From the NCBI RefSeq assembly GCF_021372645.1, contig NZ_JAJFUC010000015.1:62001-126000 (forward strand): a DNA stretch of 64,000 nucleotides. The letters run 5' to 3'. Below are positions 8,028 to 56,278 of the stretch, in pieces. The stretch comes from Clostridium sp. Lineage in GTDB: Bacteria; Bacillota; Clostridia; Clostridiales; Clostridiaceae. The position numbers and the translations under genes are program-made. Position 1 is the first letter of the stretch. The number at the start of each line of letters is the position of its first letter. The notes below the pieces were generated by a model. It made no database searches, had not been told where the DNA came from, and was given only the letters and a program-made list of their open reading frames with translations.

Positions 8028-9890
8028 TTATCTTTTATGTATCTGAGGTTTTTTAAATTGAAATATATCTTGAATATTGATATTACTATTGGTTTTCTTT
8101 TTGTTTTTAACTTCATAATATCTAGCAACCCACCAAATTGCTTGAGAAAAACTTGAATAACGGTCTTTTCTCTGAGATTTAGTCATTGTTTTTAATCCAA
8201 CATTATTGCCTTTCATATCAATTTCTAACTGCATCATCTCTTGAATAAGAAAATCACTTTGATAATACTGAACCAATAAATCACTTTTAATTTCAGGAGT
8301 AAGTTTCTTCCCATATTTAATTTCTAAATTATTTTCTGCTTCCATTGGTGTAGTTAATAATCTTACTGATTTTGTTTGTAAATGCCCTAATGTAGTATTA
8401 TGAATATCATTATATAATTCAGAAGTTACCACTTTCATCAAGTGTAAAATAGGTAAAGCACCCTCAGTCTTTTCTCCTTTTGATTCATCTCCATTTACTG
8501 AAACAACACTATAAGGTTTATATGTTTTACCATATTCTTCATCTTCAATTGTATCAGTTAAAAAATCGGTCAGTCCCTGCCCCACACCCCCTGCATCCAA
8601 CAGGACAGCCTTTACTTGATACTTATCGACCAATCTTTTAATTTCAATGGCTTGATTTTTAAAATGCATTATACTATTAATACTTGTATTATTCTTATTT
8701 GAATCTTCATAAGCATAAATAGCAACAACATTCTTATAAAAAGTACCATCTTTTTTAGGAGTACATCTAACAATCATTGCTATACTAGCATCATTAGCAC
8801 TACCACCCATTCTACTAACATCATAGGAAAGTATATAAAAATCATCTTTATGATTTTTAAAATCCGCTTCTAATTCACAATACTTAATAGTTCTACAAGA
8901 ATTAATAACATCTAATTTAAAGAACGATTTCTCAGAAAATTTTATCCAAATACTTCTATATTCTCTATCAAAAGATATTTGAGAAAAAGAAGGGTCTTTC
9001 TTAATAGAATCAATTTTAGATTGTTTTAACAATCCATGATATAAAGGCAATTCATAACTTGATCCTAAAACAAAATATGTACCATTACCTGTATATCTAG
9101 GAGTCTTACACATATTTTTTAAAAACTCAATTTGCTTTCTACAAATATCTGTATCATAGAATCCAGCGGTAGTAACATACCAAACCTGTTCATCAAATTC
9201 TACTGGATTCTCATACCCTGTACATGTCCTTCTTTTAACATTAAATAAAGGCAGTATAACCTCATTCATAGTTGTAACATCAATATCAAATGCTTCTTCA
9301 ATTGTGCCTAGGTGTTTTCTTCCACCACGAGAGGTGTTGTGACATCCAACAATGTTTAATTCAGAATTACTATATGTTTTTAAATCAAGATAGTCTTTAC
9401 CTATACTTAGACTCATTATTTCTTTTTCTAAAGCAGGAAATAAAGATTTAATTTCATTAAACTTTTCATTAGCAATATCTCTACCTTGTTGTTTTGAACC
9501 TGCTGCGGTAACACTATTTTTTAATCCAGGTTTCATAATATCTAATAAAAAGTTTGCTAATATCTCAACAAATGATTTACTCGCACCTCTAGTTAATGTA
9601 TCAAATACATATTGGTATCTAAAAAACACTCTAAGCATAATTCTTTGATAAGGATATAATTCAAAATGACTATCTGCTGGAGTAATCATATCAATGAAAT
9701 AATCTGGATATTTTAAGAAAAAACTTGCCCAAAGCATAAATTTATCTTGATTCGCTTTTAGTTTATTTAATTTATCTGCTTGTGATTTGTCTTTATTATA
9801 AAAACTATTAAATTCTGGATTATTTGTATTATATCTATTTTTAGTATATTTTTTATTATCAGTTTGAAAAGTATGATTATTAAACGCCAT
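8028..9890 (-). CDS. terL: Terminase large subunit (packaging ATPase/nuclease)
   Basis: 620 residues. The N-terminal ATPase carries a Walker A variant (TLTRGASKSF, residues ~98-107) and an acidic Walker B/catalytic segment (LGTIEEAFD). The C-terminal RNase H-fold nuclease shows its first metal-binding Asp in ILSYDVSRMGG and a second in VLLDAGGVGQG. These are the expected landmarks of TerL, which cuts and pumps concatemeric DNA into the prohead through the portal. The start overlaps the end of the TerS candidate by 11 nt. Confidence 0.9.
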   Translation of the reverse strand: MAFNNHTFQTDNKKYTKNRYNTNNPEFNSFYNKDKSQADKLNKLKANQDKFMLWASFFLKYPDYFIDMITPADSHFELYPYQRIMLRVFFRYQYVFDTLTRGASKSFVEILANFLLDIMKPGLKNSVTAAGSKQQGRDIANEKFNEIKSLFPALEKEIMSLSIGKDYLDLKTYSNSELNIVGCHNTSRGGRKHLGTIEEAFDIDVTTMNEVILPLFNVKRRTCTGYENPVEFDEQVWYVTTAGFYDTDICRKQIEFLKNMCKTPRYTGNGTYFVLGSSYELPLYHGLLKQSKIDSIKKDPSFSQISFDREYRSIWIKFSEKSFFKLDVINSCRTIKYCELEADFKNHKDDFYILSYDVSRMGGSANDASIAMIVRCTPKKDGTFYKNVVAIYAYEDSNKNNTSINSIMHFKNQAIEIKRLVDKYQVKAVLLDAGGVGQGLTDFLTDTIEDEEYGKTYKPYSVVSVNGDESKGEKTEGALPILHLMKVVTSELYNDIHNTTLGHLQTKSVRLLTTPMEAENNLEIKYGKKLTPEIKSDLLVQYYQSDFLIQEMMQLEIDMKGNNVGLKTMTKSQRKDRYSSFSQAIWWVARYYEVKNKKKTNSNINIQDIFQFKKPQIHKR

Positions 9891-10935
9891 CTATATCACC
9901 AATATCTTCATCAATTATATCTTCATTCATTTCTTCATCTGCAATTTGTTCTATATATGGGGTAAATACAATTTCCTGCCCTTTTTGATAATCATATGTC
10001 ATAAAATTTTTAACTTCACCTAAAGATATTTCTGGTAATCCTAATAATGTTCTATTGTAATTAATAAACATAAAAATAGCATAATCAATATCATCTATAA
10101 TTAAATCAGGAAAAGTAGGAATAAAATCATTACTCTTTTCAATATACTGAAAAAATGTTGCAAAATTAGTTACTCCACCCATTTTATCTGATTCAGATAA
10201 TTGACTAGGTTTTAACTTACCAGAAGCCATGTAATTATCAAATAATCCACCCCATTTACTTGCTTCTTGAGCATTTCCTTCTCTTATTGCTTCAATATTT
10301 CTTAATTGATATAAACAGGCTGTTTTTAGATATTCTTCTTGCGATCTATTATCAATATCATAACTATTAAATAGGTTTTGATATAAATCTTCCAGCATCA
10401 TATATTGTTCTGGCTCGAACCCATTCCCCCATTTAATAATCATATCTCTAGTAACTGTAAAATCATCGGCTATATCTACATAACCTACTTTATTACCATC
10501 AGTATTATTTTGATTAAAATTTATTTTACCAATTTTATTTTCTTCATAATTAAAAACAGAGTCTTTCCATGTAAAATTTTTATATTGTTTAAGACTGTTA
10601 ATGTTTTTGAAGTATAGTTGTATTGGATTTGCTTTTTGATATTTACCTTCTTTATTGCTTTCATCATATGCATACTGCAAAACATCTTTTAAAAATGGTT
10701 TGTCAATCTTTTGAAGCAATTCTGTAAATTTATTTATATTAAAATTATTATCTTCATCACAAGATAGTAAAATGCAACAATCTTTACAAAATTGGACTCT
10801 GCCAGTATTAGCATGATAAACACTTGCACTAGCATAGAAATCAGTTGCTTTTTTAGTGGTTTCACAATTTGGGCAATATATTTCTGCCACTAATGGTTTC
10901 TTCTTTTCTTGAGGTTTTCGCCCAAGTTTAGGCAT
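9880..10935 (-). CDS. Putative terminase small subunit with N-terminal zinc ribbon
   Basis: 351 residues, directly upstream of and overlapping terL, the normal place for TerS. An N-terminal zinc ribbon is visible (CPNCETTKKATDFY ... CKDCC, residues ~20-55), followed by a helical, Asn-rich body and an acidic tail. Large zinc-ribbon TerS-like proteins occur in low-GC phages. The role rests on synteny and the DNA-binding-type N-terminus. Confidence 0.6.
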   Translation of the reverse strand: MPKLGRKPQEKKKPLVAEIYCPNCETTKKATDFYASASVYHANTGRVQFCKDCCILLSCDEDNNFNINKFTELLQKIDKPFLKDVLQYAYDESNKEGKYQKANPIQLYFKNINSLKQYKNFTWKDSVFNYEENKIGKINFNQNNTDGNKVGYVDIADDFTVTRDMIIKWGNGFEPEQYMMLEDLYQNLFNSYDIDNRSQEEYLKTACLYQLRNIEAIREGNAQEASKWGGLFDNYMASGKLKPSQLSESDKMGGVTNFATFFQYIEKSNDFIPTFPDLIIDDIDYAIFMFINYNRTLLGLPEISLGEVKNFMTYDYQKGQEIVFTPYIEQIADEEMNEDIIDEDIGDIDGV

Positions 10936-10976
10936 ACCACCACTCTCCTTTAATCCAAATAAAAAGAAGTTAGTAT

Positions 10977-12020
10977 TTAACCAACTTCTTTTAAATCTTT
11001 ATACTTACCTTTGTTATAGTTATCTATAAATTCATAAAATTGTTCAGGTGTATTGTTACCGTAACCAAATTCCAAATGAAATTTTACATGATATTTATTT
11101 TGCATACAAATACCTAATGGATATCTATAATGTAATTCTAAACACTTATCTATAATTGTTTGTAATTCTTCTTGAGTATACCAACCAATACTATCATATA
11201 AGGGTAATTTAGTTTCACTTAATGCATCTTGTATAATATTATCAAGACTATATAAATGATGAATAACATCAAATCTTTCACCTGTAAAAAAACATTTATA
11301 ATTGGAATTTTTCATACTATCAAATTTCCACTGTTTTATATTTCTTCTAATTTCTAAAGATAAAACACTAATGCCACCTTTATAATTAGGATTTAATTCT
11401 CCAAATCTTTGACTATTATAAAAAGGATTATCCGAACCAATCCATTTATTTTCTTCCTTTTTCCTTATTGATATTAATTTACCTGCATCTTTATTTATTC
11501 TATTTTTAGTTTCTAAAGTTTTATATAATCCTAACTCTTTAGCCTTATGTTCTAAAGATGATACGTTTCTATCATTTAAAAATAATTCAATTATCTCTAA
11601 ATTTGAATAATAAGGATAATTGATTATCATCAAATTTATTTCTTCATCTGTCCAAGGTTTAATAGGTGAGTTTATTCTAAATAATTCCCCTTTACACTCT
11701 CTACAAACATTTCTCAATCCATCAATAGTTCCTTTAATATCCGTAGGAAAATAATCTTCACTACAAGGTAGATATCTTTCACATTGTTTACATAATTTAT
11801 ATTGAACATCATCAATATATTTGTGTTTAATTTCATCGTAATTTTTTATAACTTTCTTTTTTCTATGTATCCCAAACTTACTTAATTTATGTTGTACTGC
11901 TTTATGAGTTCTTTTAACTGATAATAAATTTATAATCTCATCAATTTCTAAATCTTTGCCCTTCTCTCTAATAATATTTAAATCTTCTTCACTCCAAGGT
12001 ATTGCATTTCCTATAATCAT
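10977..12020 (-). CDS. HNH-type homing endonuclease with SANT/HTH-like repeats
   Basis: 347 residues. Two Myb/SANT-like repeats (PWSEEDLNIIREKGK; PWTDEEINLMIINYP) flank a zinc-binding segment (CKQCERYLPCSEDYF ... CRECKGE). The C-terminal part (KCFFTGERFDVIHHLYS ... NKYHVKFH) is HNH-like. It sits alone between strong terminators and the packaging genes, a typical slot for a free-standing homing endonuclease. Confidence 0.65.
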   Translation of the reverse strand: MIIGNAIPWSEEDLNIIREKGKDLEIDEIINLLSVKRTHKAVQHKLSKFGIHRKKKVIKNYDEIKHKYIDDVQYKLCKQCERYLPCSEDYFPTDIKGTIDGLRNVCRECKGELFRINSPIKPWTDEEINLMIINYPYYSNLEIIELFLNDRNVSSLEHKAKELGLYKTLETKNRINKDAGKLISIRKKEENKWIGSDNPFYNSQRFGELNPNYKGGISVLSLEIRRNIKQWKFDSMKNSNYKCFFTGERFDVIHHLYSLDNIIQDALSETKLPLYDSIGWYTQEELQTIIDKCLELHYRYPLGICMQNKYHVKFHLEFGYGNNTPEQFYEFIDNYNKGKYKDLKEVG

Positions 12021-17949: not shown

Positions 17950-18613
17950 TTAATTTATAATATTTACCTAAAAATTCATATGTATCATTATCTACTTCCT
18001 GAACTTCTTCAATCTTACATTGTTTTTTATCAGGTGAATTATTCTTTAGATTTTTTAACATAATATCACTAAATAATGACCAACATAAAACTTTATCCTC
18101 ACTAATAGACCTATATGCTACTTTGATACAATAATTTGCTAACAATTCTCGATCTAAATTAATTTCATTTAACTTGTTTTTGTATTTATCAAACAATATA
18201 TCAAATTCTTTATTATCATCCTCTTTTTTCTCATCTAACAAGTTCTTTAAATCAAATTTAAATTGATCATAAATATATTTTATTTTTTTAATAATGTGTT
18301 TATTAGATAAATCTAAATCTCTATTAACTAATAAATGCCCATTATTTATAACTTTTTTATCCCAAACAATATTATGTTTTTCCCAATAACAAATATAATC
18401 ACATAATTCATTAAGCGGAGAAGGGGAACGATAAGCATTATATGGGATTCTATCTTCATTATTATTTTCTTTATTGATCCTGCGTATTTTATTATAGACA
18501 TTTAATTTTTTAGGATAATTATACAAAAGAAAATATGGCAATCTTTTTAAATGTTTACGTAAATTCTTAGTCAGTACCCATCTATAACCAACTTTGATAA
18601 AATCAATTTCTTT
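17939..18613 (-). CDS. YonO-like RNA polymerase, exon 2 (C-terminal ~224 codons)
   Basis: The frame entering this exon reads KEIDFIKVGYRWVLTKN and continues LRKHLKRLPYFLLYNY. It joins in phase with exon 1 (..LLRLYQG) when the group I intron at 18614-19692 is removed, giving a protein of about 859 residues, near the size of SPbeta YonO. Without splicing only a TTG-initiated fragment from 18541 would be made. In QDE-1/YonO-type enzymes the part after the catalytic DxDGD loop contributes the bridge-helix/trigger-loop region, so loss of splicing would give an inactive enzyme. Junction coordinates are my best estimate. Confidence 0.7.
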   Translation of the reverse strand, partial: KEIDFIKVGYRWVLTKNLRKHLKRLPYFLLYNYPKKLNVYNKIRRINKENNNEDRIPYNAYRSPSPLNELCDYICYWEKHNIVWDKKVINNGHLLVNRDLDLSNKHIIKKIKYIYDQFKFDLKNLLDEKKEDDNKEFDILFDKYKNKLNEINLDRELLANYCIKVAYRSISEDKVLCWSLFSDIMLKNLKNNSPDKKQCKIEEVQEVDNDTYEFLGKYYKLIEI

Positions 18614-19692
18614 CCTTTATACCCTCGGTTTCCCGATATTTATTAGGGGAGTAGACCATATCATTACCCACTAAGGGCAATCGGCACTTCGGAATAAGGA
18701 GTTTCACCTTAAACCTACTTCCTTACGGAATGGTCGTTACACTTTACTTTTAAATAAAAGTCTTAGCACGGGATTATCATATTATTTATATTATATTAAT
18801 AACATTAATTTATACTACAACATGTTTCCAACGATTATTATATTTTAATTGATAAGCATATGATTTTGGAATATTATATTCATCTTCAATTTGTTGAGCA
18901 GTATATCCATTTTTAAGTTTTAATTTTACTTCATAAATTAATTCCTCGGTATATTTTGAAGTTGGTTGTTTAGAACCTTGATTAGCAACTCTACATTTAT
19001 TTTTAGTTTCTTCTGAAATAGTCTTACCAGTTAATGATTTACTCAAATTCTGTCTATGTTCTTCTGTTTTTATATATCCCTTATGAGATTCAGACATTTT
19101 ATTTTTTGTTTCTTTAGAAAATTTTTTACCTATCATATTAATACGATTCTTTTCTCCAATAGTCTTTTTTGCTTCCTCAGAAAGTTTATGCCCTAATGTT
19201 CCTTCTCCACCAAGTGTTTGATTATATCCATTGTTATAAGCATCATATAAAGAAATATAATGTTTTTCTAATTCGTTAATATTATCATTTCTATTACATA
19301 TATGTAAAATTTCAAATTTAAAATTTTGTTCACCATATTTATTAAAAGACCTTTGTAAATGTTTATTATTATGAGTGCCATTTCTTAATAAACATCTATG
19401 ATGAATCATTCTATCATAAAATCTTTCTTCTGTTTTTCCAATATAAACTTTATTATTTATAAGATTTTTAATCATATAAATACCAAAATCATCCATATTT
19501 TATCCTCCTTCCTTGTATAATTCTTTTCTATTTATTTAATCAATTATATAATATAAATAACTTAGATTTTCCCCGTTAGCTAATTCATTACCCATCATTT
19601 CCTATGGGACACTAAACGCTGAATTAACACCCTAGATTTCTAGGTTCACCGATTTTTCTCTATATATTACTATATAGAGGGGCAATACATTT
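18614..19692 (-). other. Group I intron inside the RNA polymerase gene
   Basis: The intron core is readable on the minus strand. The P element (GCTAACGGGGAAAATC) is at ~19580-19565 and Q (AATCCCGTGCTAAG) at ~18776-18763, giving P4 ACGGG/CCCGT. R (GTAACGACCA) is at ~18740-18731 and S (GATATGGTCTAC) at ~18662-18651, giving P7 GACCA/TGGTC. The proposed 5' splice site follows U19693 (CAGGGU), which can pair with GCCC downstream through a U-G wobble; the 3' end is omega-G at 18614. The endonuclease ORF lies between P and Q, in a peripheral loop. Splicing restores the polymerase frame. Confidence 0.85.
18810..19496 (-). CDS. Intron-encoded GIY-YIG homing endonuclease
   Basis: 228 residues. N-terminal GIY-YIG nuclease domain (GIYMIKNLINNKVYIGKT, with catalytic R in ERFYDRM and a downstream LEKHYISLYD Glu helix), then NUMOD3-like repeats (LSEEAKKTIGEKNR, FSKETKNKMSESHKG, ISEETKNKCRVANQG) and a helix-turn-helix end (YTAQQIEDEYNIPKSYAYQL). 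This order is that of I-TevI/I-BmoI-type intron endonucleases, which move the intron into intronless alleles. Confidence 0.9.
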   Translation of the reverse strand: MDDFGIYMIKNLINNKVYIGKTEERFYDRMIHHRCLLRNGTHNNKHLQRSFNKYGEQNFKFEILHICNRNDNINELEKHYISLYDAYNNGYNQTLGGEGTLGHKLSEEAKKTIGEKNRINMIGKKFSKETKNKMSESHKGYIKTEEHRQNLSKSLTGKTISEETKNKCRVANQGSKQPTSKYTEELIYEVKLKLKNGYTAQQIEDEYNIPKSYAYQLKYNNRWKHVVV

Positions 19693-25810: not shown

Positions 25811-25927
25811 TTGAACTCAAGGAATCCCTATATATCGGGTCTGGTTGACGGTTTTATATATCTTATCTTCTCACTACCACATCCTCTCATTTAATAATAT
25901 AATTTTCTATATAAATATCCTAATCAT

Positions 25928-27207: not shown

Positions 27208-27262
27208 CGAAATTTAGTCGAAAGTCGATTTTAGGTAGGGTCTGTTGATGGAATAGATGTGC

Positions 27263-27274
27263 GAACATCTGTTC
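27263..27274. promoter_or_regulatory. LexA/DinR (SOS) box
   Basis: GAAC-ATCT-GTTC, preceded by C, fits the Gram-positive LexA consensus CGAACNNNNGTTCG closely. It lies in the divergence region between the leftward integrase arm and the rightward early arm. Confidence 0.65.
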
Positions 27275-27277
27275 TAC

Positions 27278-27289
27278 AAACATCTGTTC
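27278..27289. promoter_or_regulatory. Second, degenerate SOS box
   Basis: AAAC-ATCT-GTTC, 15 bp from the perfect box, one mismatch in the left half. The tandem arrangement suggests cooperative LexA control. Confidence 0.45.
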
Positions 27290-27299
27290 TTTTTGTGAA

Positions 27300-40738: not shown

Positions 40739-41752
40739 ATGCAGAGAAAGAGTTTATCATGGTCAGTAAAGCAGGTTAATACAATGATTAATAAGGAATC
40801 TATCATATTTGACAATCCTGTGCAAAGACCAGCAGGACAATGGAAAGATGAAGATAAGTCATTACTTATCCATTCTACACTAGAAATGTTTGTTCCTGAT
40901 ATCTATGCTATACAGGAGAAACATGAAACAGGGAACACCTATAGTATAATTGACGGACTCCAGAGACTTACTATTATTCATTCATTTTTAAATGATGAAT
41001 GGGCATTAACAGAACTCCCACAAATCAGACTTGAATCAACTGGTGAAAAGTTTAATATTTCAGGCAAGAAATTCACAGAACTTCCAGAAGAAGTACAGGA
41101 TGAAATTAAAGGGTTTATGCTCTCCTTCAAACTGATTGAACTTGAAGAAGATGATGATGAAGAAAGTATTGTAAATGATATTTTCTACCGTTTGAATAAT
41201 GGTAAACCTGTAAGCAAAGAACATCTTGCCTTAGTATCAGCAAAGAAGAATATACAGGAATTTGTACATAAGATCATAACAGAACATAAATTATTTACGG
41301 ACGTAGCACACTTTACAAATAATGCAGTAAAGAAATCAGATAAGCAGATGACGGTATTACAATCAATCATCTTAGTATCGGGGTTGGAATATAACACATT
41401 CAATACAAAGGATGTTGAGAAATTCTTTATGCAAAATGACATAACGGATGAAGTCTTAAACCGCACAGAGGAATTATTCACAACCATAGCAAGTAGTTTT
41501 GGTAATGAGTATAACAAATTCTGCACCAAGATTAATATAGTATCTATGGTAGGATTCTTAAACAGTCTGGACAATCAAGAACAGATTAAGAGTTTCCTCA
41601 CATGGTATCCTAAAAACAGTAAACCAGGAGATGTATATAAAAACAATTGTGGAGCAGGATCAACGAAGAAAGAGAGAATCAATGGCAGGATTAATGGATT
41701 GAAGGAAATTTATGATAATTGGATTAAAGATAATTTTAAGTTGACAGCATAA
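40739..41752 (+). CDS. DUF262-like protein with DGLQR motif, 337 aa
   Basis: The N-terminal ~110 residues match DUF262 (ParB/Srx-fold nucleotidase-nuclease group): WSVKQVNTMI near the start, then YSIIDGLQRLTIIHSFLN, where D-G-x-Q-R is the family's signature, and later NDIFYRLNNGKPVSKEH. Related domains (GmrS, BrxU) act in defence or anti-defence and phages carry solo versions. There is no C-terminal HNH (DUF1524), so this is the DUF262 domain plus a helical C-terminus. Function open. Confidence 0.7.
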   Translation: MQRKSLSWSVKQVNTMINKESIIFDNPVQRPAGQWKDEDKSLLIHSTLEMFVPDIYAIQEKHETGNTYSIIDGLQRLTIIHSFLNDEWALTELPQIRLESTGEKFNISGKKFTELPEEVQDEIKGFMLSFKLIELEEDDDEESIVNDIFYRLNNGKPVSKEHLALVSAKKNIQEFVHKIITEHKLFTDVAHFTNNAVKKSDKQMTVLQSIILVSGLEYNTFNTKDVEKFFMQNDITDEVLNRTEELFTTIASSFGNEYNKFCTKINIVSMVGFLNSLDNQEQIKSFLTWYPKNSKPGDVYKNNCGAGSTKKERINGRINGLKEIYDNWIKDNFKLTA

Positions 41753-48257: not shown

Positions 48258-49154
48258 TTGGACAAAAAACCATATATAAAATATAAAGATTGCCATAAAA
48301 TTATTGACAATGTTGAACATAAAATGTGTAAAACATGTAAAAGTTGGTTTGAAATGAATAATAATAATTTTGTTGTTCAACCAAGTAAAAGAGATGGTTT
48401 TAGTGATAAATGTATTGTTTGTAACAATAAATATAAAAAAGAATATTATGCTAAAACAAGGGAACATCAAATCGCTTTAGCAAGTGAAAGGCAAAAGAAT
48501 AATAAAGATAAAAAAGCTATTTATAATAAAAATCACTACAAGCATGAATATGTAAGAATTAAACACAAAGAACAATTAAAACAACAAAAAGAAAGTGGTT
48601 ATCATGCTGAATATTTAAGAAAACATCCTGAGAAAATAAAACAATATGCTAAAAATCATAGACATCATGATATTACTAACAAAGAATGGATTGCATGTAA
48701 AGATTATTTTAAAAACGAAGATGGGGAATGGTGTTGTATTTATTGTGGTTTAACCGAAAAAGAACATAAGCAAAAATATAAAGAACAATTACATAAAGAT
48801 CATGTTGATAATGAGGGTTATAATGACATTAGAAATTGTGTTCCTGCTTGTAAGAATTGTAATAGTAATAAATGGGCGTTTCCGATGGAGGAATGGTATA
48901 AAAAGCAAGACTTTTATAATGAAGATAATATTATAAAAATAAATAAATGGTGTGATGGTGATTATAAAAAATACATAGAAAATAAACCTCAATATAAAAT
49001 AAAAAGAAGTAGGGTTAATAATGAGGATGGGACATATTACATGCAACATGAATTATGGACAGTGGATGAGAAAAGAAATCTAGTTGAATGTGTGGATATA
49101 GCTAAAAACAAAAAAGATTTAAATTTAGATTTAATAATTGAGAAAGGAGAATAA
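48258..49154 (+). CDS. HNH homing endonuclease, 298 aa
   Basis: Two zinc-binding CxxC segments (CKTCKSWFEMNN, CIVCNNKYKKE), a long basic helix, then an HNH core: CCIYCGLTE, LHKDHVDNEG, CVPACKNCNSNK. TTG start behind AAAGGAGG. It is a paralogue of the protein at 58353-59006. Its place next to the agr-like cassette could have helped move it. Confidence 0.8.
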   Translation: MDKKPYIKYKDCHKIIDNVEHKMCKTCKSWFEMNNNNFVVQPSKRDGFSDKCIVCNNKYKKEYYAKTREHQIALASERQKNNKDKKAIYNKNHYKHEYVRIKHKEQLKQQKESGYHAEYLRKHPEKIKQYAKNHRHHDITNKEWIACKDYFKNEDGEWCCIYCGLTEKEHKQKYKEQLHKDHVDNEGYNDIRNCVPACKNCNSNKWAFPMEEWYKKQDFYNEDNIIKINKWCDGDYKKYIENKPQYKIKRSRVNNEDGTYYMQHELWTVDEKRNLVECVDIAKNKKDLNLDLIIEKGE

Positions 49155-49162
49155 AACGTTAA

Positions 49163-49747
49163 TTGATTGAAACCTGGGTGTTAGCACTTTTATATAGTTG
49201 GCATAAGAAATTAAACATTAAATTACTCTTTGAGAGTTGGCCTATATATCTTCCTTTGTGCATGTTGTGCTTGTATATAATAGCTGAGATATTAATATTC
49301 AATGACCAATATTGGATTACTCAATATGGATCACAAATAAAACAAATAACCTTACTTAGTTATTTAGGATTAGTATTAAAATATAAACTTTATGATTCTG
49401 AAAATACAAACCAAAGTGAATTGAAAAGGTTTTTAACTTCACCATTTATAATAGCAATTATATGTTTAGTAATTGGTTATAGTATGAATTTCATAGCAAT
49501 CACTATGAATTCAGGACATATGCCAGTATTCCCATCCACTACGTATTTTACTGGTTACACGGACTCTAGTAGTTTTACTAAAGATAGTTTTTATGTATTA
49601 GGAGATAGTACAAGCAAGGCAATACCACTTTGTGATATATATGATATTTATTATAGTAATCTTAGTTTAGGAGATGTATTTGTTAGATGTTATGTGTTTT
49701 TATTAATATACCATTCTATTAGAAGAATTAATAAAAACATAAAATAA
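49163..49747 (+). CDS. DUF5317-like membrane protein, 194 aa
   Basis: Five hydrophobic segments. The extracytoplasmic part has the DUF5317 pattern: NSGHMPVFP, FYVLGDSTSKAIPLCD and LSLGDVFVRCYVFLLI. DUF5317 proteins are common near AgrB/AgrD loci in Clostridia. TTG start behind AAAGGAG. It opens the agr-like cassette. Confidence 0.7.
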   Translation: MIETWVLALLYSWHKKLNIKLLFESWPIYLPLCMLCLYIIAEILIFNDQYWITQYGSQIKQITLLSYLGLVLKYKLYDSENTNQSELKRFLTSPFIIAIICLVIGYSMNFIAITMNSGHMPVFPSTTYFTGYTDSSSFTKDSFYVLGDSTSKAIPLCDIYDIYYSNLSLGDVFVRCYVFLLIYHSIRRINKNIK

Positions 49748-49815
49748 TTATAGACAATTTATACAACATTGTGTTAATATGTAATAGAAGATAAAATATA
49801 TTACATATTAAGGAG

Positions 49816-50622
49816 TTGTTTGAAATGCAGAGTATTGTTAATGCGGTGTTGAATACGGTATTTGTTAGTATTCCAGAAAGTATAATATGGGTTTTATTTG
49901 TTTTATTTTTACTAAAACGTAATGATCTGTTAGACATTTACAGATGGAAAGATAATTTAAAACAAATAATGATTGCTGTTATTCCAGTATCTATTAGTAT
50001 AAATCTAATGAGATATATTTTACATATCGGCAATCTAATTAATTTTATCATTATTGAAGTTATGATGATTTTATTAATTACTTATATAATAAAGAAAAAT
50101 AATTTTCTACAAGAAAAAATTAATTATTTAAAAATTGTTATTTATGTATTACTGGCAGATTTTATTTTAATTTTTATTACAGAAGGTTTATTGGGTTTAA
50201 TAGTAATACAAATATTAAATATGAATATAGAAACAATTAATAATAACATTTTATTGAATATCGTTTTGTCATTCATTCCACGAAGTATACAAATCCTCTT
50301 GATAAGTTTTTGTATATATAAACAGAATATAGGAAAGATGATAAATTATATAGAATTAATAATAGAAAACAAAGTGTTATCTATATCAATGAGTATATTT
50401 TTAATTATGGTAATAATCTCTAATGCTATTTTAGATAGATTCATATTAGGAATGAATTATTTAAATCATTATATTATTCCTGTTAAAATTTCAATTACAG
50501 TTATAATAATTTTAATCCCGATAATTATGATTAGTTCTTATATTATCTCTATTTATAACTTATTGTGGATTAATTTAAAAATACAAAAAGAAAAAGATAA
50601 TATGCTAAATGATATTTATTAA
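49816..50622 (+). CDS. AgrC-like membrane receptor lacking the histidine kinase
   Basis: 268 residues with 6-7 transmembrane helices and no soluble domain. The end (SIYNLLWINLKIQKEKDNML) matches where an AgrC sensor would leave the membrane and enter its DHp/HATPase kinase; the gene stops there. Its stop codon overlaps the ribosome-binding site of the AgrD-like gene. It is either a peptide receptor that signals by another route or a peptide-binding/immunity protein. The AgrC relation is inferred from topology and context. Confidence 0.55.
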   Translation: MFEMQSIVNAVLNTVFVSIPESIIWVLFVLFLLKRNDLLDIYRWKDNLKQIMIAVIPVSISINLMRYILHIGNLINFIIIEVMMILLITYIIKKNNFLQEKINYLKIVIYVLLADFILIFITEGLLGLIVIQILNMNIETINNNILLNIVLSFIPRSIQILLISFCIYKQNIGKMINYIELIIENKVLSISMSIFLIMVIISNAILDRFILGMNYLNHYIIPVKISITVIIILIPIIMISSYIISIYNLLWINLKIQKEKDNMLNDIY

Positions 50623-50636
50623 AGGAGGTGAAATTT

Positions 50637-50756
50637 TTGAAGAAGTATGGTCTTATTGCTAGTATAGTTGTTATAGCAGCTACTATTTTTGGTACATGTG
50701 TTGCATCACATCTTTTGTTTAACGAACCCCGTGTCCCTTCCATGCTTTCTAAGTAA
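50637..50756 (+). CDS. agrD: AgrD-like cyclic lactone autoinducer pre-peptide, 39 aa
   Basis: Reads KKYGLIASIVVIAATIFGTC then VASHLLFNEPRVPSMLSK: an amphipathic N-terminal helix, a small ring region and the conserved charged tail (E-P-x-V-P-x-x-L). Aligned by the tail, the ring nucleophile position (five residues before the cut) is Ser24, giving SHLLF, with Cys21 upstream. TTG start 6 nt after AAAGGAGGTG. The partner AgrB lies at 52047. Confidence 0.8.
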   Translation: MKKYGLIASIVVIAATIFGTCVASHLLFNEPRVPSMLSK

Positions 50757-50767
50757 TGAAGCAAAAT

Positions 50768-50803
50768 ATTCTGTACAGTTTGTTTTTACACTCTGTACAG
50801 AAT
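50768..50803. promoter_or_regulatory. Twin CTGTACAG palindromes / 11-bp inverted repeat
   Basis: ATTCTGTACAG and CTGTACAGAAT, each containing the palindrome CTGTACAG, 14 nt apart. Together they form a hairpin after the AgrD-like gene. It may be a terminator/attenuator or two operator sites in front of the HTH-MazF promoter. Confidence 0.5.
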
Positions 50804-50831
50804 AAAAAAATAATAATTCTCAATAAAAGTA

Positions 50832-50860
50832 TTGTAAAAAATTACAAGAGGTGATACAAT
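50832..50860 (+). promoter_or_regulatory. Sigma-A promoter before the HTH-MazF gene
   Basis: TTGTAA, 17-nt spacer ending GGTGA, TACAAT, 32 nt before the ATG. It separates expression of toxin and AgrB from the receptor/peptide genes. Confidence 0.6.
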
Positions 50861-50891
50861 GATTACATAAAATATGAAGGAGTGATTATCA

Positions 50892-51743
50892 ATGATTAAA
50901 GAGAAAACCAGGGAGGAATTATCAAACGAACTTAGAAAGGCGATTGGTTACAGATCAATATCTCAATTCGCAAAAGATTGTAGGATGGTTGATGTTAGTT
51001 TAATAGTTAATATTTTAGACAAACGGATTGTTGTACTGCCTGAGAGAGAAGTGTTGAGGACTATTGAAAGAGCAAGTGAAGGTAGAGTAACTTATACATA
51101 CCTTTGTCAAATTTGCGGTTACTCAAAGTATGATTCTAATGAAGATAAAACCTGGGCAACTTATCAACCAGAGCGTGGTTCTGTTTACATGGCAGATTTA
51201 GGATTGAATAATATGGATTCAGAACAGGAGGGTGTTAGACCAGTTCTGATTGTCTCAAATGAAACAGGAAATAAATACGGAAGTATAATAACAGTTGCAC
51301 CTTTAACTTCACAAAGAAAACGTAAACTGCCTATACATGTTGAATTGAACGTAGATGACGGAATGCGAAGGGATTCTCTTATTTGTCTGGAACAGACTAG
51401 GGCAATAAGTAAACGTAGATTATTCTATAACGGTGTACCAATTAAAGTGCTTAAATTATCTGAAGCAAAAATAGAAGAAGTCAACACGGCAATAGAAAAA
51501 CAATTCGGTTTGATAGATTGTTTATTTAATAATGAAGTTGCTTTTGAACTTATTGAGCAGATTGAAACACTTGAACAAAATATAAAAACTAAAAAAATTA
51601 AACCTTCGTTCTTATCTGAATTGCTTAATGGTAAACGCAAGGAATTAATTGCCTACTATAAGAAGTATAACAAGAATGAAAACTCAGTTATTAAAAATTA
51701 TGAAGGGACGAGAGAATTTATGCCTTTAGTTGTAGGAGGTTGA
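50892..51743 (+). CDS. HTH-MazF/PemK fusion (toxin-like endoribonuclease), 283 aa
   Basis: Residues ~1-85 look like an XRE-type HTH (ELSNELRKAIGYRSISQFAK). Residues ~92-205 form a MazF/PemK domain with its ordered motifs: PERGSVYMADLG, GVRPVLIVSN, ITVAPLTSQ, DSLICLEQTRAISKRRL. The remaining ~75 residues are unknown. MazF enzymes cut mRNA at short motifs. Fusion of a DNA-binding N-terminus suggests self-regulation. It lies between the agrD- and agrB-like genes. Confidence 0.8.
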   Translation: MIKEKTREELSNELRKAIGYRSISQFAKDCRMVDVSLIVNILDKRIVVLPEREVLRTIERASEGRVTYTYLCQICGYSKYDSNEDKTWATYQPERGSVYMADLGLNNMDSEQEGVRPVLIVSNETGNKYGSIITVAPLTSQRKRKLPIHVELNVDDGMRRDSLICLEQTRAISKRRLFYNGVPIKVLKLSEAKIEEVNTAIEKQFGLIDCLFNNEVAFELIEQIETLEQNIKTKKIKPSFLSELLNGKRKELIAYYKKYNKNENSVIKNYEGTREFMPLVVGG

Positions 51744-51747
51744 ATAA

Positions 51748-52050
51748 ATGATTGATGAGTTAGAAATTAAAAGTTTTGATGTTAAATTTGGGACTAAATC
51801 AAAGGTGTTTCAATATAGTAATACGATTGTTGTTGAAACACCGTTGGATACATGGATGATAAAGGTTACTAATAGGCAGGTTAGACCAATCTGCCTATTA
51901 CATAAAAATAAATTTGGAAGAATTAATAAATTCCATATTCAAAATTGGAAGACATGTCTATATCACACATATGACTCTATTTACAGGCATAAAGGGATGC
52001 ATCTTGTAGGTGCATCCAATACATACAATAAAGGTAGTCAAGTAAAATGA
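51748..52050 (+). CDS. Hypothetical protein of the agr-like cassette, 100 aa
   Basis: Beta-rich basic protein (FDVKFGTKSKVFQYSNTIVV) with no family known to me. It starts 5 nt after the HTH-MazF stop and overlaps the AgrB start by 4 nt, so it is coupled on both sides; an antitoxin or cassette-specific factor is possible. Confidence 0.55.
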   Translation: MIDELEIKSFDVKFGTKSKVFQYSNTIVVETPLDTWMIKVTNRQVRPICLLHKNKFGRINKFHIQNWKTCLYHTYDSIYRHKGMHLVGASNTYNKGSQVK

Positions 52051-52640
52051 AAAAATATTTTCGGTACTTATACACTTTAAAATATATTAAACTTTTTAGT
52101 TACTGGAGTGCCAGATCATTACAGTTATCACGCAAGGAAAACCATCAACACAAATATATGTATTACTATGGATTTGAAATCCTCTATGGAGCAATAAACA
52201 AAGGATTACTACTATTATTAGCAGGTTTAATATTAGATATTTTACCTCAAATTCTTGTTACTACACTTTCATTCATGTTGCTTAGAATTTTTATAGGTGG
52301 TTTACATTTTAACAATTATACTAAGTGTGCCTGGATTTCATTAGTTACATTAGTTGGTATGGGACTGTTAGGGAAATACATTCCTTATAATAACTTGATG
52401 AATATAATAGTTTTCATATCATTATTTTTTATCATACTAAGATATGCTCCAATCCCACATCCTAACAGACCACTTAAAGATGGGGATAAAGGTAAATTTA
52501 AATGTATAGCATTTTGTTTATTAATCGCAATATATTGTGTTGAACTATTAAAAGGCAATCCCGATATCAACAATTCTATTATGTATGGTGTTTTGTTAGC
52601 AGGAATTATTGCCTTACCTATATTTAAGAATGTCGAATAA
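52047..52640 (+). CDS. agrB: AgrB-like peptide-processing membrane protease
   Basis: 197 residues, 5-6 transmembrane helices. Catalytic His87 and Cys94 lie in LRIFIGGLHFNNYTKCAW with the spacing of S. aureus AgrB (H77/C84), and the family's YAPIPHPNRPL motif follows. AgrB cuts the AgrD tail and closes the (thio)lactone ring, then the peptide is exported. Its presence with the AgrD-like peptide shows a full signal-production pair. Confidence 0.9.
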   Translation: MKKYFRYLYTLKYIKLFSYWSARSLQLSRKENHQHKYMYYYGFEILYGAINKGLLLLLAGLILDILPQILVTTLSFMLLRIFIGGLHFNNYTKCAWISLVTLVGMGLLGKYIPYNNLMNIIVFISLFFIILRYAPIPHPNRPLKDGDKGKFKCIAFCLLIAIYCVELLKGNPDINNSIMYGVLLAGIIALPIFKNVE

Positions 52641-52758
52641 AAGAATATAATGTCGGTAAGTTTAAATTGTAATATATAAATAAAAGTTTTACAATAGAAT
52701 TTATAAGAAATATGTCGTATTAATATGGTAAAGTAAAAAAATTTTAGTCTAAATAATG

Positions 52759-52810
52759 TTGTATTTATTTATTACAATGATTATAATAAAAAATAATCGA
52801 ACAAATGTTC
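52759..52810 (+). promoter_or_regulatory. Sigma-A promoter with LexA (SOS) box
   Basis: TTGTAT, 17-nt spacer, TATAAT (52782-52787), and 11 nt further GAAC-AAAT-GTTC (52799-52810, with C before it): a perfect core of the Firmicute LexA site at the expected start of transcription. It controls the 82-aa gene and probably the switch genes beyond. Confidence 0.75.
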
Positions 52811-52843
52811 TAATAATAATTTAATACAGGAGGGTTTAATTAT

Positions 52844-53092
52844 ATGCTAAATAAACAAGTAGGAGTAATCAGGAATCAAGATGGATACTTTGTTAATATG
52901 AGGCAGATAAAAGGAGGGCATTATTACACATTATATAATGGAATAACTACAGGATTTACATTCTATGAAAACAAAAAAACAATGGATAACGATTTAAAGA
53001 TACTTGGAGAAGGGTTTTATACGGAATACATAAGTTTAAAAGATATTCCAGATGGCATTAGAATTTCAACGAACAAAATAAACAAAATATAA
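52844..53092 (+). CDS. SOS-controlled small protein, 82 aa
   Basis: Gly/aromatic-rich beta protein (KQVGVIRNQDGYFVNMRQIK). First gene after the LexA box. A position like that of SOS-induced antirepressors, but no sequence family is recognised. Confidence 0.55.
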   Translation: MLNKQVGVIRNQDGYFVNMRQIKGGHYYTLYNGITTGFTFYENKKTMDNDLKILGEGFYTEYISLKDIPDGIRISTNKINKI

Positions 53093-53111
53093 TAATACAT
53101 GTTTAGAATTA

Positions 53112-53140
53112 TTGACACCTGTCAAGACTTATAATATAAT
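53112..53140 (+). promoter_or_regulatory. Strong sigma-A promoter of the DGQHR/MrpR-like genes
   Basis: TTGACA, 17-nt spacer, TATAAT, both boxes perfect. It includes CCTGTCAAGAC between boxes. It gives the switch genes a constitutive or repressor-controlled start. Confidence 0.8.
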
Positions 53141-53180
53141 TACATAGTAAATGTGATTAAGTATTTGGAGGTGTAAATAA

Positions 53181-54509
53181 ATGACCAGAGATAGGGAACT
53201 ACAATTAAAAAATAAGTTAAAAAATATTATTCGTGAATTTGGTTATGACAACAACATTAAACAATCTGTAATGGATGAATTCAAATCACGCAATCTTCCT
53301 GCATTACGTGCTGCATGGGTATTTTCAGAGAATCTTGATTTAGACACACTTACTGATTCAGAAGAAGATATCCAGTTTCTCTTCTTATTTAGTCTTGCCT
53401 TGAATAACGCATTAAAAGAAAAAGATATTGATATGTTAAAAGATTATCAGAACTATTTTACAAAGGTAGAAGTGTCTGAATGGGAAAACTATGCTGAAGA
53501 AAAAGAGTCTGACAATGTTTTCCCTTACAATTTTAAAGATGCACAAGAGATTGTTCCTGGCCGACAATGGCAAACTAAACTCACAGCACAACAATTAAAT
53601 GAGTTGTATAATGTGTTAATCTGGAACCCTAATTCTCAAAGGGGGTTCAAGGTAACAAAAAAGGCAATTAGAATTAATGAAGACCCTAATAAAGTTAAAG
53701 AGATAGCAAATAGTATGCTTGCTGGAACATATTATCCAGATCACTTAAAGATTAATGTTTTAAAAGGTGAAACAGCACCTATTTGGAATCCTAAAACCAG
53801 AATATTGACTTTAAGAGAGGGGACTATCCTGAATATTTTTGATGGTCAACACAGGAAATCAGCTACCGCTTTAGCTCTAATTGAAGAACCAGATTTAGAG
53901 TTTGTTTGGCCTATAGTTATTACACATTTATCAGAAATTGAAACACACAATGCAATGGTACAAATAAACAAGCAAACACCTATCAGAGAAGAAGTTATAG
54001 CACCGAAAGATTATAGCAAAAATGAAAATCTTGTTGTTGATAAAATTATGGATAGTCGTGGTGATTTAGCAAATGCAACTAAAGATACTGATAGTTTTGT
54101 GAAATCAGATAGGGGATTAACAACCAAGTCCATTCTTGCCGATGCAATCAAAGATAATTATGGAGATCAATTAGATTCTGCTATGCAACGTGACGAAGTT
54201 GCCAGTTGGATTGTTGAATTTACTAATTATCTCATGGGATATTACCAAAATGAGTTTATTGTTAATCCTTATGAGGTAAAAAAGAATAGTTATATTAACA
54301 ATTTAAATATGTTTTATGCTTATATTGCACTTTCCACAGTATTAAAAGATAATAAACAATGGAAAGAAGAACTTAAACAAGCGATTGAATCAATTGATTT
54401 TAGTATCGAAAATCCAATATGGAGAGAAATTGGGATTATTAAAGAGAATAAAATCAATAAAACCACTAAAAATAAACTGTATAACTTGTTTAAAGGTGGT
54501 GTGAAGTAA
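53181..54509 (+). CDS. DGQHR-domain protein (DndB-like), 442 aa
   Basis: DGQHR at residues 221-225 in LNIFDGQHRKSATA, then AMVQINKQTPI, as in DndB/DGQHR proteins with a ParB/sulfiredoxin-type fold. The first ~120 residues are helical. DndB represses dnd genes in host DNA-phosphorothioation systems; here no other dnd gene is present, so a stand-alone regulator role is more likely. It overlaps the next gene by one base. Confidence 0.7.
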   Translation: MTRDRELQLKNKLKNIIREFGYDNNIKQSVMDEFKSRNLPALRAAWVFSENLDLDTLTDSEEDIQFLFLFSLALNNALKEKDIDMLKDYQNYFTKVEVSEWENYAEEKESDNVFPYNFKDAQEIVPGRQWQTKLTAQQLNELYNVLIWNPNSQRGFKVTKKAIRINEDPNKVKEIANSMLAGTYYPDHLKINVLKGETAPIWNPKTRILTLREGTILNIFDGQHRKSATALALIEEPDLEFVWPIVITHLSEIETHNAMVQINKQTPIREEVIAPKDYSKNENLVVDKIMDSRGDLANATKDTDSFVKSDRGLTTKSILADAIKDNYGDQLDSAMQRDEVASWIVEFTNYLMGYYQNEFIVNPYEVKKNSYINNLNMFYAYIALSTVLKDNKQWKEELKQAIESIDFSIENPIWREIGIIKENKINKTTKNKLYNLFKGGVK

Positions 54510-55492
54510 TGGAATTTAAAGTAGATAATGAAATTAAACAAGAATATCTACTAAACAAACCAACGGGAACGGCAGAGAGTGATACTTTTGTGTTGCGAGA
54601 ATTTGATAATTATGAAGCAAAAGTTGGTAAACAGGTTTATAATCTTAGTATTCCTGAGTTAAATGAAATGTTTTCAATGTTACGCAATACTTCTAAACGT
54701 GGAGCAGGAAAAAACAAGTCAATTTTAATAAGTTATATTGATTTTTGCGTTGCTAAAAAAATAGTAGTCCATATGGAAAATAGAGCAAAGTATATTGATG
54801 TTGAAAAATTTGTGGCTAGGCAAGCATTATTAAACAAATATATTACTAAAGAAAAACTAATACAATACCAAAATATTCTGTTTAATGAGCAAGACCAATT
54901 ACTTTTATGGTTGCTTTTCATTGGTGTTAGGGGTAGAACAATTGAAAATGCTACAATGGAGGAAATAATTAATTTAACTATTGATGATGTATTCCCTGAA
55001 AAGGGCAGATTGATTTTAAAACAGAATGATGGTAAGGATAGGATATTAGATAATGTAGATGGTTTTATTATTGATTTGATTAAATCAGTCTACGAACAAG
55101 AGTTTTACGTTGAAAACAATGGAGAAATGACTAATAATCCTAGAGTTCCAGACCCTAGACGTAGTAAAATTAATAGAACTGGTGAATTTAGTAGACATAT
55201 TTTTAGAACACCTGGGAAAAACAAGTTTGATAGTTTTAGTCCTAGTTTGCTCAATTCAAGAATGAGAAAAATACAAACTTATTGTGATAATAAATATATT
55301 ACATGGAGTTCGTTGTATTTTTCAGGAATGCTTCAAATGGCATTTAATATTTATCACGAAAAAGGCGAAATTGATAAAGAAGATTTCATTAATATTTGTG
55401 ATAGGTATAATTATGGATCAGGTGATCCTCAAAAATACTGGCACGTTTTAAAAGAATTATTTGAGCAATATAAGGAAGTGTTGCGAAATTGA
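54509..55492 (+). CDS. Integrase-fold regulator resembling SPbeta MrpR/YopR, 327 aa
   Basis: Has a core-binding-like helical N-terminus and a region that mimics the tyrosine recombinase start (LLLWLLFIGVRGRTIENATM, then NLTIDDV, KQNDGKDRIL), but the later H-x-x-R and Tyr motifs are missing. MrpR of SPbeta is a 325-residue, catalytically dead recombinase-fold repressor that keeps lysogeny. The near-equal size and regulatory neighbourhood support homology, but I could not align it. It is the best candidate for the lysogeny master regulator. Confidence 0.55.
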   Translation: MEFKVDNEIKQEYLLNKPTGTAESDTFVLREFDNYEAKVGKQVYNLSIPELNEMFSMLRNTSKRGAGKNKSILISYIDFCVAKKIVVHMENRAKYIDVEKFVARQALLNKYITKEKLIQYQNILFNEQDQLLLWLLFIGVRGRTIENATMEEIINLTIDDVFPEKGRLILKQNDGKDRILDNVDGFIIDLIKSVYEQEFYVENNGEMTNNPRVPDPRRSKINRTGEFSRHIFRTPGKNKFDSFSPSLLNSRMRKIQTYCDNKYITWSSLYFSGMLQMAFNIYHEKGEIDKEDFINICDRYNYGSGDPQKYWHVLKELFEQYKEVLRN

Positions 55493-55878
55493 TTTTAGAA
55501 TCTATGTGGAAAAAGCATAAAATATTAACACATATAAAAACAGGACTAGTAGACAAGGGTTATAATTTTAAATCCTTGTCTACTCTTAATTCACAAATTG
55601 AATTACTAGATAAGTTAATCAAAGAGGAAAGTTTTAATCAGTTAGAACAACTTCTCAGAAAAACCAACTACCGTCTTCTTAAACAAATAGAAAAGGGCGA
55701 AGAATATTTAGTGAGTATTATAAATCATCCTGACCAATGGCAACTATGTAAAATTGACGAATATTGTGAAGAATGTTTGAATAATAATTCATTAATTTTT
55801 TGTACGGAACGGGGAGAAATATTGGCATTTAATAAGAATGATTATGGTCAAAAATACATTAATAATAAATGGCAATAA
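55489..55878 (+). CDS. Hypothetical protein of the switch operon, 129 aa
   Basis: Starts within the stop of the preceding gene (4-nt overlap). Helical N-terminus and a Cys-containing C-terminal half (KIDEYCEECLNNNSLIFC). Function unknown. Confidence 0.55.
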   Translation: MILESMWKKHKILTHIKTGLVDKGYNFKSLSTLNSQIELLDKLIKEESFNQLEQLLRKTNYRLLKQIEKGEEYLVSIINHPDQWQLCKIDEYCEECLNNNSLIFCTERGEILAFNKNDYGQKYINNKWQ

Positions 55879-55894
55879 GAAAGGAATGAATTAA

Positions 55895-56278
55895 ATGAAT
55901 ATAGGTCAAAAAATTGAAATATTATTTCAAAGATCGGACTATAAAAATTATGCTGATTGGGGAAGGGCAATGAATTTGTCTGGTGATTGGCTTAATGATA
56001 TGAAGAAAAAAGATACTATTAAAACTGTAGATATAACCAAATTAATTATATTTACAGAGTTTAATCATATCACTCTTGAAGAACTGTTAAAAAATGATAG
56101 ATCAATTGACTTTAACGATGATTTACCAGATAATGATATTAAACAAATGTTAAATAAAATTCAAATACAACTTAAAGATGAATCCAAGTTTGAAAATTTT
56201 ATCATGAATGAAGCAAGTAAAGAAATAACTTATGATGCAATTGATGTTTTAAAGGGATTAATTAAAAGTAACCTATGA
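55895..56278 (+). CDS. HTH (XRE-like) protein, 127 aa
   Basis: The N-terminus (IGQKIEILFQRSDYKNYADW, then MNLSGDWLNDMKKKD) looks like a Cro/CI-type HTH, followed by a helical domain. The last gene of the switch operon; a plausible partner of the MrpR-like protein. Confidence 0.55.
   Translation: MNIGQKIEILFQRSDYKNYADWGRAMNLSGDWLNDMKKKDTIKTVDITKLIIFTEFNHITLEELLKNDRSIDFNDDLPDNDIKQMLNKIQIQLKDESKFENFIMNEASKEITYDAIDVLKGLIKSNL

Follow-up and report, generated by a model that had tools for sequence, protein, structure and literature searches.

Here we report an agr-type gene cassette beside an SPbeta-like lysogeny switch, located in a stretch of 64,000 nucleotides of Clostridium sp. (positions 62,001 to 126,000 of contig NZ_JAJFUC010000015.1), which is called the window throughout. 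The cassette consists of genes for an AgrC-like membrane protein without kinase, an AgrD-like propeptide, a helix-turn-helix (HTH)-MazF fusion, a small protein (p100) and the peptidase AgrB, and is followed by the genes of a DGQHR-family protein and an MrpR-type repressor. The order AgrC-like protein, AgrD, HTH-MazF, AgrB, DGQHR, MrpR is kept in 8/8 distinct loci, the window and seven viral contigs, and because it recurs in these seven other contigs the arrangement is not due to chance. We consider it reasonably probable that the cassette feeds a peptide signal into the switch by which a large SPbeta-like phage controls lysogeny, with MazF as the effector. The locus points to a new form of phage peptide communication that is real, conserved and linked to the switch, and whose central step we infer.

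Phage context and conservation

The window is part of a contig of 149,326 bases (C25) in a 3.12-Mb draft genome that is 93.5% complete. C25 also encodes a large integrase-family serine recombinase (phrog_95, E 5e-75) and a portal protein (phrog_2739), together with a DNA helicase (phrog_1967), DNA ligase and DNA methylase. These genes fit a large temperate phage of SPbeta-like type, probably of clostridia, the host being judged clostridial by its AgrD type. The phage-borne location claimed by the original prediction, an earlier note made from the DNA letters alone, is thereby borne out, and the cassette is phage-borne wherever it was found.

Viral contigs were scanned with HTH-MazF, MrpR, DGQHR and AgrB queries, and cassette plus switch were recovered in seven further distinct contigs (L026, L027, L030, L032, L035, L041 and L104). 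The search for the same gene order elsewhere, which the prediction had proposed, was thus successful, and the link between cassette and switch holds as adjacency in 8/8 loci. Around this core, a DUF5317-like membrane protein (194 aa, 49163..49747, plus strand, as for all genes of cassette and switch in the window; PF17248, E 4.8e-13) adjoins the cassette in 7/8 loci (a fragment at the contig end in L027, none in L104). The protein p100 lies between MazF and AgrB in 7/8 (none in L104), relatives of an 82-aa protein (p82) occur in 7/8 (none in L041), and two proteins downstream of MrpR, p129 and p127, are each found in 5/8. Across the eight loci, pairwise identity ranges over 31-75% for MrpR, 31-81% for DGQHR and 40-76% for AgrB. 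In a tree with 50 host-genome AgrBs, those of the eight phage loci group together as a single clade on a long stem (support 100/99); the tree program warned that a long host branch (L082) meets the phage AgrB branch.

The count excludes L037, L102 and L108 (contig 3300005405_000144, a near copy of L035) and repeat copies of the same contigs (L005, L006, L029, L031, L034, L036, L038-L040, L103, L105, L107, L109, L111 and L112). Also uncounted are L033 (MazF only, on a 5-kb contig), L042 (its contig starts just 5' of p82), L125-L127 (DGQHR without an MrpR match) and L022 and L023 (Clostridioides difficile phages with DGQHR), and two Bacillaceae phages (L024, L025) served for comparison only. At E 1e-20 the DGQHR family was found in 1/68 genomes of the genus, the present one; at E 1e-15 it was found in 7/391 genomes of the class and 4/225 of the order, the present genome being counted in each. 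Five of the eight other genomes with DGQHR matches were inspected (G529, G076, G444, G096 and G160, not G159, G186 and G322). A scan of genome contigs with the DGQHR query, which is not specific to the cassette, gave one truncated relative and one without agr. MazF was rejected as a genome query, since it matched in 135/147 genomes and was uninformative. Among named phages, window positions 49100-52700 had no blastn match, and AgrB and the AgrC-like protein had no tblastn match, in searches that do not detect the AgrB known from phage Davies either; among plasmids there was no match to AgrB, the sole query used there. Because the Davies AgrB was missed, the named-phage and plasmid searches are short in reach.

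Two loci carry inserted genes: L026 has a 246-aa gene, HNH endonuclease-like by eye, between p82 and DGQHR (9160-9900), and L032 has a 359-aa gene between MazF and p100 (10222-11301).

Peptide signal and membrane protein

AgrB (197 aa, 52047..52640; PF04647, E 6.2e-36) has the motif GG-x-H-x6-C in 8/8 loci, and the conserved His and Cys of the peptidase are therefore present. The AgrD-like propeptide (39 aa, 50637..50756) most likely starts from TTG 50637, with AGGAGG about 9 bases 5' of it, and has a predicted ring S-H-L-L-F, followed by N-E-P-R-V-P. When the phage AgrDs are aligned by the tail [QE]P[EKR]xP, which is present in 8/8 (in L032 without its end), the ring position is Ser in 8/8, and the predicted rings are SHLLF, SHTLF, SAAWL, SAWTF, SRFFF, SFMWL, SFMGL and SLMWL. 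The agr-type nature of both proteins, as first proposed, is confirmed by the AgrB family match, the Ser ring and the tail.

Host AgrDs with the same tail have Cys at the ring position in 26/26. A Ser ring was considered as a phage-only mark and rejected, since 12 chromosomal AgrDs of a second type also have Ser, 11 of them without a nearby Cys; because of this second host type, the Ser ring is no phage invention. Serine-lactone peptides occur in other Gram-positive bacteria as well. The further agr locus of the host genome (G000:C9:3060-3640, L079) has its AgrB match in two separate pieces.

The AgrC-like protein (268 aa, 49816..50622), the proposed peptide receptor, is encoded in 8/8 loci, and a helix count in seven of its members gave 6-7 hydrophobic ones. 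The window protein has no kinase and matches no Pfam family, and a PDB profile search with the family gave nothing convincing. No AgrA (LytTR) response regulator was found among ten neighbouring proteins scanned, the rest of the phage not being searched. Distances between the predicted rings track those of the AgrC-like protein (r 0.53, p 0.011), and do not track those of AgrB (-0.11), MazF (-0.02), DGQHR (0.19) or MrpR (0.14). As an example, L035 and L041 have receptors 55% identical and rings SFMWL and SFMGL, with AgrB at 43% and MazF at 37% identity. This covariation is the best argument for a receptor role and is suggestive only, as neighbouring genes may simply travel together; ring chemistry and receptor role alike are predictions from sequence statistics.

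That phages carry agr genes, including kinase-less ones, is already known. The Clostridioides phage phiCDHM1 resembles the present phage in having AgrB and AgrD and no response regulator; it differs in that its AgrC has a HATPase domain, and the accessible text of its description reports no MazF/MrpR neighbourhood (PMC3901668). The same text lists AgrB and kinase-less membrane proteins for the Brevibacillus phages Davies, Emery and Abouo ('Paenibacillus' in that paper; PMC3901668). Davies is a 46-kb phage with an agr-type cassette at gp44-gp46 and neither MazF nor MrpR annotated beside it; of twelve query proteins from the window, only AgrB matches it at E 1. SPbeta-like phages are said in passing to have agr homologs, no gene set being given in the accessible part of that source (PMC11945551). 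In the openly accessible literature, most subscription papers being outside its reach, we found no description of an MrpR switch accompanied by AgrB/AgrD and MazF. A prophage survey of C. difficile reportedly mentions agr.

The switch, MazF and control elements

The repressor gene (54509..55492, 327 aa; phrog_5830) matches PF22822 at 42.5 bits (cut-off 27), and the catalytic-domain model PF22823 falls below its cut-off of 27 at 22.1 bits. A profile of seven members without any Bacillus sequence matches the solved SPbeta MrpR (YopR; PDB 8a0a) at E 2.6e-25 over nearly the full length, and the core-binding protein 9rd5 at E 1.2e-34. The tyrosine-recombinase fold proposed for this protein, on which the link to the switch had been made to depend, thus stands. 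The gene before it (53181..54509) encodes a DGQHR/DndB-like protein (PF14072, E 6e-14; phrog_5732), the counterpart of SPbeta YopQ (26.9% to SPBc2 yopQ by tblastn).

In SPBc2 the order is aimR (yopK), aimP (yopL), yopM, yopN, yopO, yopP, yopQ (DGQHR) and yopR (MrpR). Because aimR-aimP sits upstream of the same DGQHR-MrpR pair, the agr-type cassette is in the arbitrium position, and the agr loci share with arbitrium systems (in SPbeta-like Bacillus phages, aimR-aimP-aimX followed by yopMNOPQR/sro) a signal gene directly upstream of an SPbeta-type repressor operon. Further points of likeness are a small peptide gene followed by a stem-loop, and an involvement of MazF, reported for phi3T (PMC10769878). 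The systems differ in that AgrB/AgrD and a membrane protein here replace AimR/AimP, the phage encodes its own MazF in fusion with an HTH-like domain, the hairpin has no T-run, and no YopP-type recombinase was recognised among the ten scanned neighbours. AimR (NF038310) had no match in the 93.5% complete draft genome (as a control, B. subtilis was detected among four). The idea that a cyclic peptide stands in the place of arbitrium is thus favoured both by the shared slot and by the lack of an AimR match in the draft genome. In SPbeta, MrpR is reported to bind the aimR and yopM promoter regions (PMC10516654). Repeats near CCTATATATAGG are absent at the cassette and were hence not used; candidates elsewhere in the phage are not tied to MrpR.

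The HTH-MazF fusion (283 aa, 50892..51743) has a C-terminal extension and matches PF02452 (E 8e-23), as do 7/7 scanned members, with a PDB MazF match at E 2e-26. Aligned across the eight loci, the putative catalytic residues are Arg in 8/8 and Thr in 5/8 or Ser in 3/8. The name given in the prediction therefore stands for its MazF part; the HTH part is weakly supported, by phrog_18248 in 3/8 members (best 4.5e-5). The HTH label of p127 (127 aa, 55895..56278) likewise holds through relatives (HTH_26 in 5/9, best 1.8e-5) and not for the window member itself. No MazE-like antitoxin was matched among the ten scanned proteins. The protein p100 (51748..52050), with no assigned function and no PDB match, has invariant W, H, N, H, Q and H in 9 aligned relatives and occurs also in the two tetratricopeptide repeat (TPR)-type relatives described below (its place in L124 being judged by eye). 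For the DGQHR, N-terminal MazF and p127 families, PDB profile searches gave nothing convincing. Some 2 kb upstream of the cassette, L030 (5202-5651) and L041 (2718-3140) carry another MazF-like gene, which stands alone.

Six loci without agr have DGQHR and a directly downstream gene of MrpR size, which matches MrpR in L043, L106, L110 and L123 and not in L124 and L028. A MazF-type gene lies upstream of DGQHR in 4/6 of them (not in L123 and L028). L106 and L043 have MazF alone; since L043 adjoins host-like genes, its MazF may be chromosomal. In L110 and L124 a MazF with C-terminal extension is followed by a TPR protein and then by a p100 relative, the TPR assignment resting on weak Pfam matches (4e-6 and 7e-4); no peptide gene was recognised in these two loci. 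By gene content, MazF looks like a frequent neighbour of the switch beyond the agr set, and agr or TPR genes look exchangeable. The small TPR proteins (L110 7606-8205, L124 8529-9053) occupy the slot of the agr genes behind MazF and are possibly AimR-like sensors.

A LexA (SOS) box, CGAACAAATGTTCT, lies directly behind a TATAAT at 52798..52811, with one mismatch and 0/200 shuffles as good, and precedes the gene of p82 (52844..53092). Its presence agrees with the original prediction; its assignment there to the DGQHR promoter does not hold, since DGQHR-MrpR has its own promoter-like TTGACA-17-TATAAT (53112..53140, 12/12 matches) with TACAT behind it. Boxes with at most two mismatches from CGAACRNRYGTTYG lie between AgrB and DGQHR in 7/8 agr loci, each beating at least 196/200 shuffles; L026 keeps a GAAC-N4-GTTC core, which in its long interval is without significance (117/200). 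Boxes were also found in L110 and L106 (0/200), weaker ones in L043 (5/200) and L042 (19/200), and none in L124 in the shuffle-tested scan.

Behind agrD lies a hairpin of 11 perfect pairs (50768..50803, z -5.3), which is no usual terminator because it has no T-run. Hairpins of 10-16 pairs (z -2.4 to -6.3) follow the agrD stop in 8/8 loci, in the place of the annotated stem-loop behind aimP in SPBc2; their arms differ in sequence between loci. In the gaps before p82 and before DGQHR, which served as controls, folding is mostly at the level of shuffles. The gap before the window's AgrC-like gene (49748-49815) holds an inverted repeat.

MazFs of B. subtilis, S. aureus and C. difficile are reported to cut U^ACAU, and a Symbiobacterium MazF to prefer UACAUA (PMC10893535). 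In 5/8 loci the sequence CTACATA occurs in the stretch that separates the agrD stop from the hairpin. TACAT stands directly behind the -10 element of the DGQHR promoter in 6/8 agr loci and also in L042, L106 and L110; in L030 and L041 it stands at another point of the interval, and L043 and L124 have none. It was chosen for counting as the known MazF site, after the sightings in the leaders. Expectations were taken from synonymous-codon shuffles, a Markov expectation overstating the depletion. In the DGQHR and MrpR coding sequences of the eight agr loci, 8 TACAT were counted vs 21.2 expected (sd 3.6), which gives it rank 2 among 474 pentamers; as the loci are related, this rank is more trustworthy than a z-score. 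Flanking genes are not depleted (72 vs 63.4), and the agr genes have 41 vs 48.6. The counts suggest that MazF may spare the repressor message.

Two LexA-type boxes at 27262-27290 of the window lie in the gap that parts the minus-strand from the plus-strand genes, some 80 bases away from a copy of a repeated palindrome near CC(T/A)ATATATAGG. This palindrome occurs at window positions 25827, 27367 and 63449 and at C25 positions 10905, 17054, 24445, 26217, 138832 and 139748; a ATCATGATAAAA-like element follows 22-27 bases past it at four C25 sites, making it a candidate phage operator-promoter.

Proposed mechanism and alternatives

In the mechanism that we propose, AgrB would cut and cyclise AgrD, and the product, probably the five-residue serine lactone S-H-L-L-F, would be exported. 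The kinase-less membrane protein would be the peptide receptor and would pass its occupancy to the HTH-MazF encoded behind the agrD hairpin, MazF being the effector and p100 a possible partner. Active MazF would favour lysogeny as in phi3T, by cutting UACAU-containing phage messages and largely sparing the DGQHR-MrpR message. DNA damage would lift LexA off the p82 promoter, and p82 would counteract MrpR or MazF, leading to induction. The wiring from signal to switch and its direction are what we infer. The effector role of MazF and a signal favouring lysogeny are drawn by analogy from phi3T alone, for which it is reported that AimX and YosL bind and inactivate host MazF and that lysogens are fewer without MazF or with an RNase-dead MazF (PMC10769878). 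That p82 acts as counter-factor to the repressor or MazF is guessed from where its gene lies.

Among phages that choose between killing and dormancy by a peptide signal of their own, arbitrium is the case studied best. Cyclic-peptide machinery in the equivalent position of related phages would suggest convergent or exchangeable solutions. It would also give a reason for the kinase-less agr genes of phages. In the accessible text of the phi3T study (PMC10769878) the part played by MazF in lysogeny is called uncharacterised, and a phage-encoded MazF would make it testable.

Several observations weigh against this mechanism. AgrC identity was tried and not upheld, since hhalign of the AgrC-like family against seven host AgrC sensor domains of clostridial type gave a probability of 0.3% (reversed control 0.2%), and the AlphaFold model is poor (predicted local distance difference test, pLDDT, 62; predicted template modelling score, pTM, 0.51) and all-helical at most. 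'AgrC-like' is therefore a working name, and of the kinase-less AgrC-like receptor first proposed the kinase-less membrane protein stands and the kinship to AgrC by sequence does not. The ring-receptor correlation falls to 0.03-0.11 after close pairs are thinned (n = 6). The AgrD tail correlates with AgrB at 0.59 (p 0.003), but about equally with MazF (0.50), the receptor (0.48) and DGQHR (0.44), and so has no preference for AgrB. The catalytic Thr of MazF is replaced by Ser in 3/8 loci, and cutting at UACAU by the phage HTH-MazF is assumed from other Gram-positive MazFs. TACAT depletion is not significant in L106, L110, L043 and L042 together (6 vs 8.8) or in the window's four switch genes alone (2 vs 3.0), and SPBc2 has 2 vs 2.0. 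The gap before the AgrC-like gene folds well in 5/7 loci (z -2.0 to -6.4) and may hold a further structured site, so the agrD hairpin is not the sole element with marked folding. All loci but that of the window stem from a collection of contigs chosen as viral, and the locus counts therefore leave room for the cassette in host chromosomes; a mainly host-chromosomal distribution, raised in the prediction as a counter-case, is answered in part, by the separate clade of the phage AgrBs.

Inheritance bears on the mechanism as well. Distances correlate within each block (MazF-AgrB r 0.84; DGQHR-MrpR r 0.87), and a further point on the opposing side is that MazF and AgrB correlate weakly with DGQHR and MrpR (r 0.25-0.33, p 0.07-0.11), which argues against a tight protein dependence of AgrB or MazF on MrpR. 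Receptor and DGQHR distances give r 0.47 (p 0.04), and L027 has a switch close to that of the window and a MazF and AgrB close to those of L030 and L041. Given this weak co-inheritance, cassette and switch look like exchangeable modules. A tentative extension is a plug-in SPbeta-like switch, possible and in our view less than even in likelihood, with a core of MazF, p100, a LexA-controlled small protein, DGQHR and MrpR and with exchangeable signal modules (agr-type or TPR, possibly AimR-like); here MazF would read the signal and sort lytic from repressor messages by UACAU. Such a design, if true, would be a second phage language, chemically unrelated, for the same decision.

Weak co-inheritance would also suit a lysogenic-conversion or anti-competitor module whose peptide modulates or blocks host agr, the adjacency to MrpR then marking a prophage-expressed region; we regard this as unlikely. 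It would fit the further agrB-agrD locus of the host genome, a phage neighbourhood without kinase and response regulator that could lean on host parts, and the host-directed roles proposed for phiCDHM1 by Hargreaves et al. 2014 in the accessible text (PMC3901668). It is opposed by the DGQHR-MrpR adjacency in 8/8 loci with MazF inside, by the cassette filling the arbitrium slot, and by phage rings of the form S-x-x-x-F/L where the main host type has Cys (26/26), though the second host type has Ser.

We think it more doubtful still that HTH-MazF and p100 form a stabilisation or abortive-infection module, with AgrBD as a dose sensor, that kills or stalls cells losing the prophage or invaded by a rival, the switch being separately under LexA and MrpR. 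The MazF domain with its conserved catalytic Arg, the membership of MazF in a known phage moron family (phrog_1936) and the TPR-type relatives that retain MazF and p100 without agr would accord with such a module. Against it stand the lack of a MazE-like gene among the ten proteins scanned and the avoidance of UACAU by the repressor messages, and it leaves AgrB, AgrD and the membrane protein in 8/8 loci unexplained. A chance neighbourhood, in which one phage newly acquired a host agr operon, is taken as refuted: agr is common in the genus (AgrB match in 34/40 genomes, the present one included), and yet the phage AgrBs form one long-stemmed clade (100/99) and the order persists across loci whose MrpRs are 31-75% identical.

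As for the gene map, the genes named in the prediction are open frames at the positions given for them, with DUF5317, MazF, AgrB, DGQHR and MrpR backed by Pfam; p82 and p129 (129 aa, 55489..55878, no assigned function, between MrpR and p127) had been left unnamed there. A probable effector role of MazF and the hairpin behind agrD had likewise been absent from the prediction. Elsewhere in the window, about 60 bases at 18602-18676 are up to 93% identical to phage terminase genes among the best 20 of 211 matches; this stretch sits between two frames, beside a homing endonuclease (18813-19496), and is perhaps a terminase interrupted by a mobile element. At 40739-41752, among plus-strand genes, a 337-aa protein has the N-terminal domain of GmrSD (PF03235, E 6e-14).

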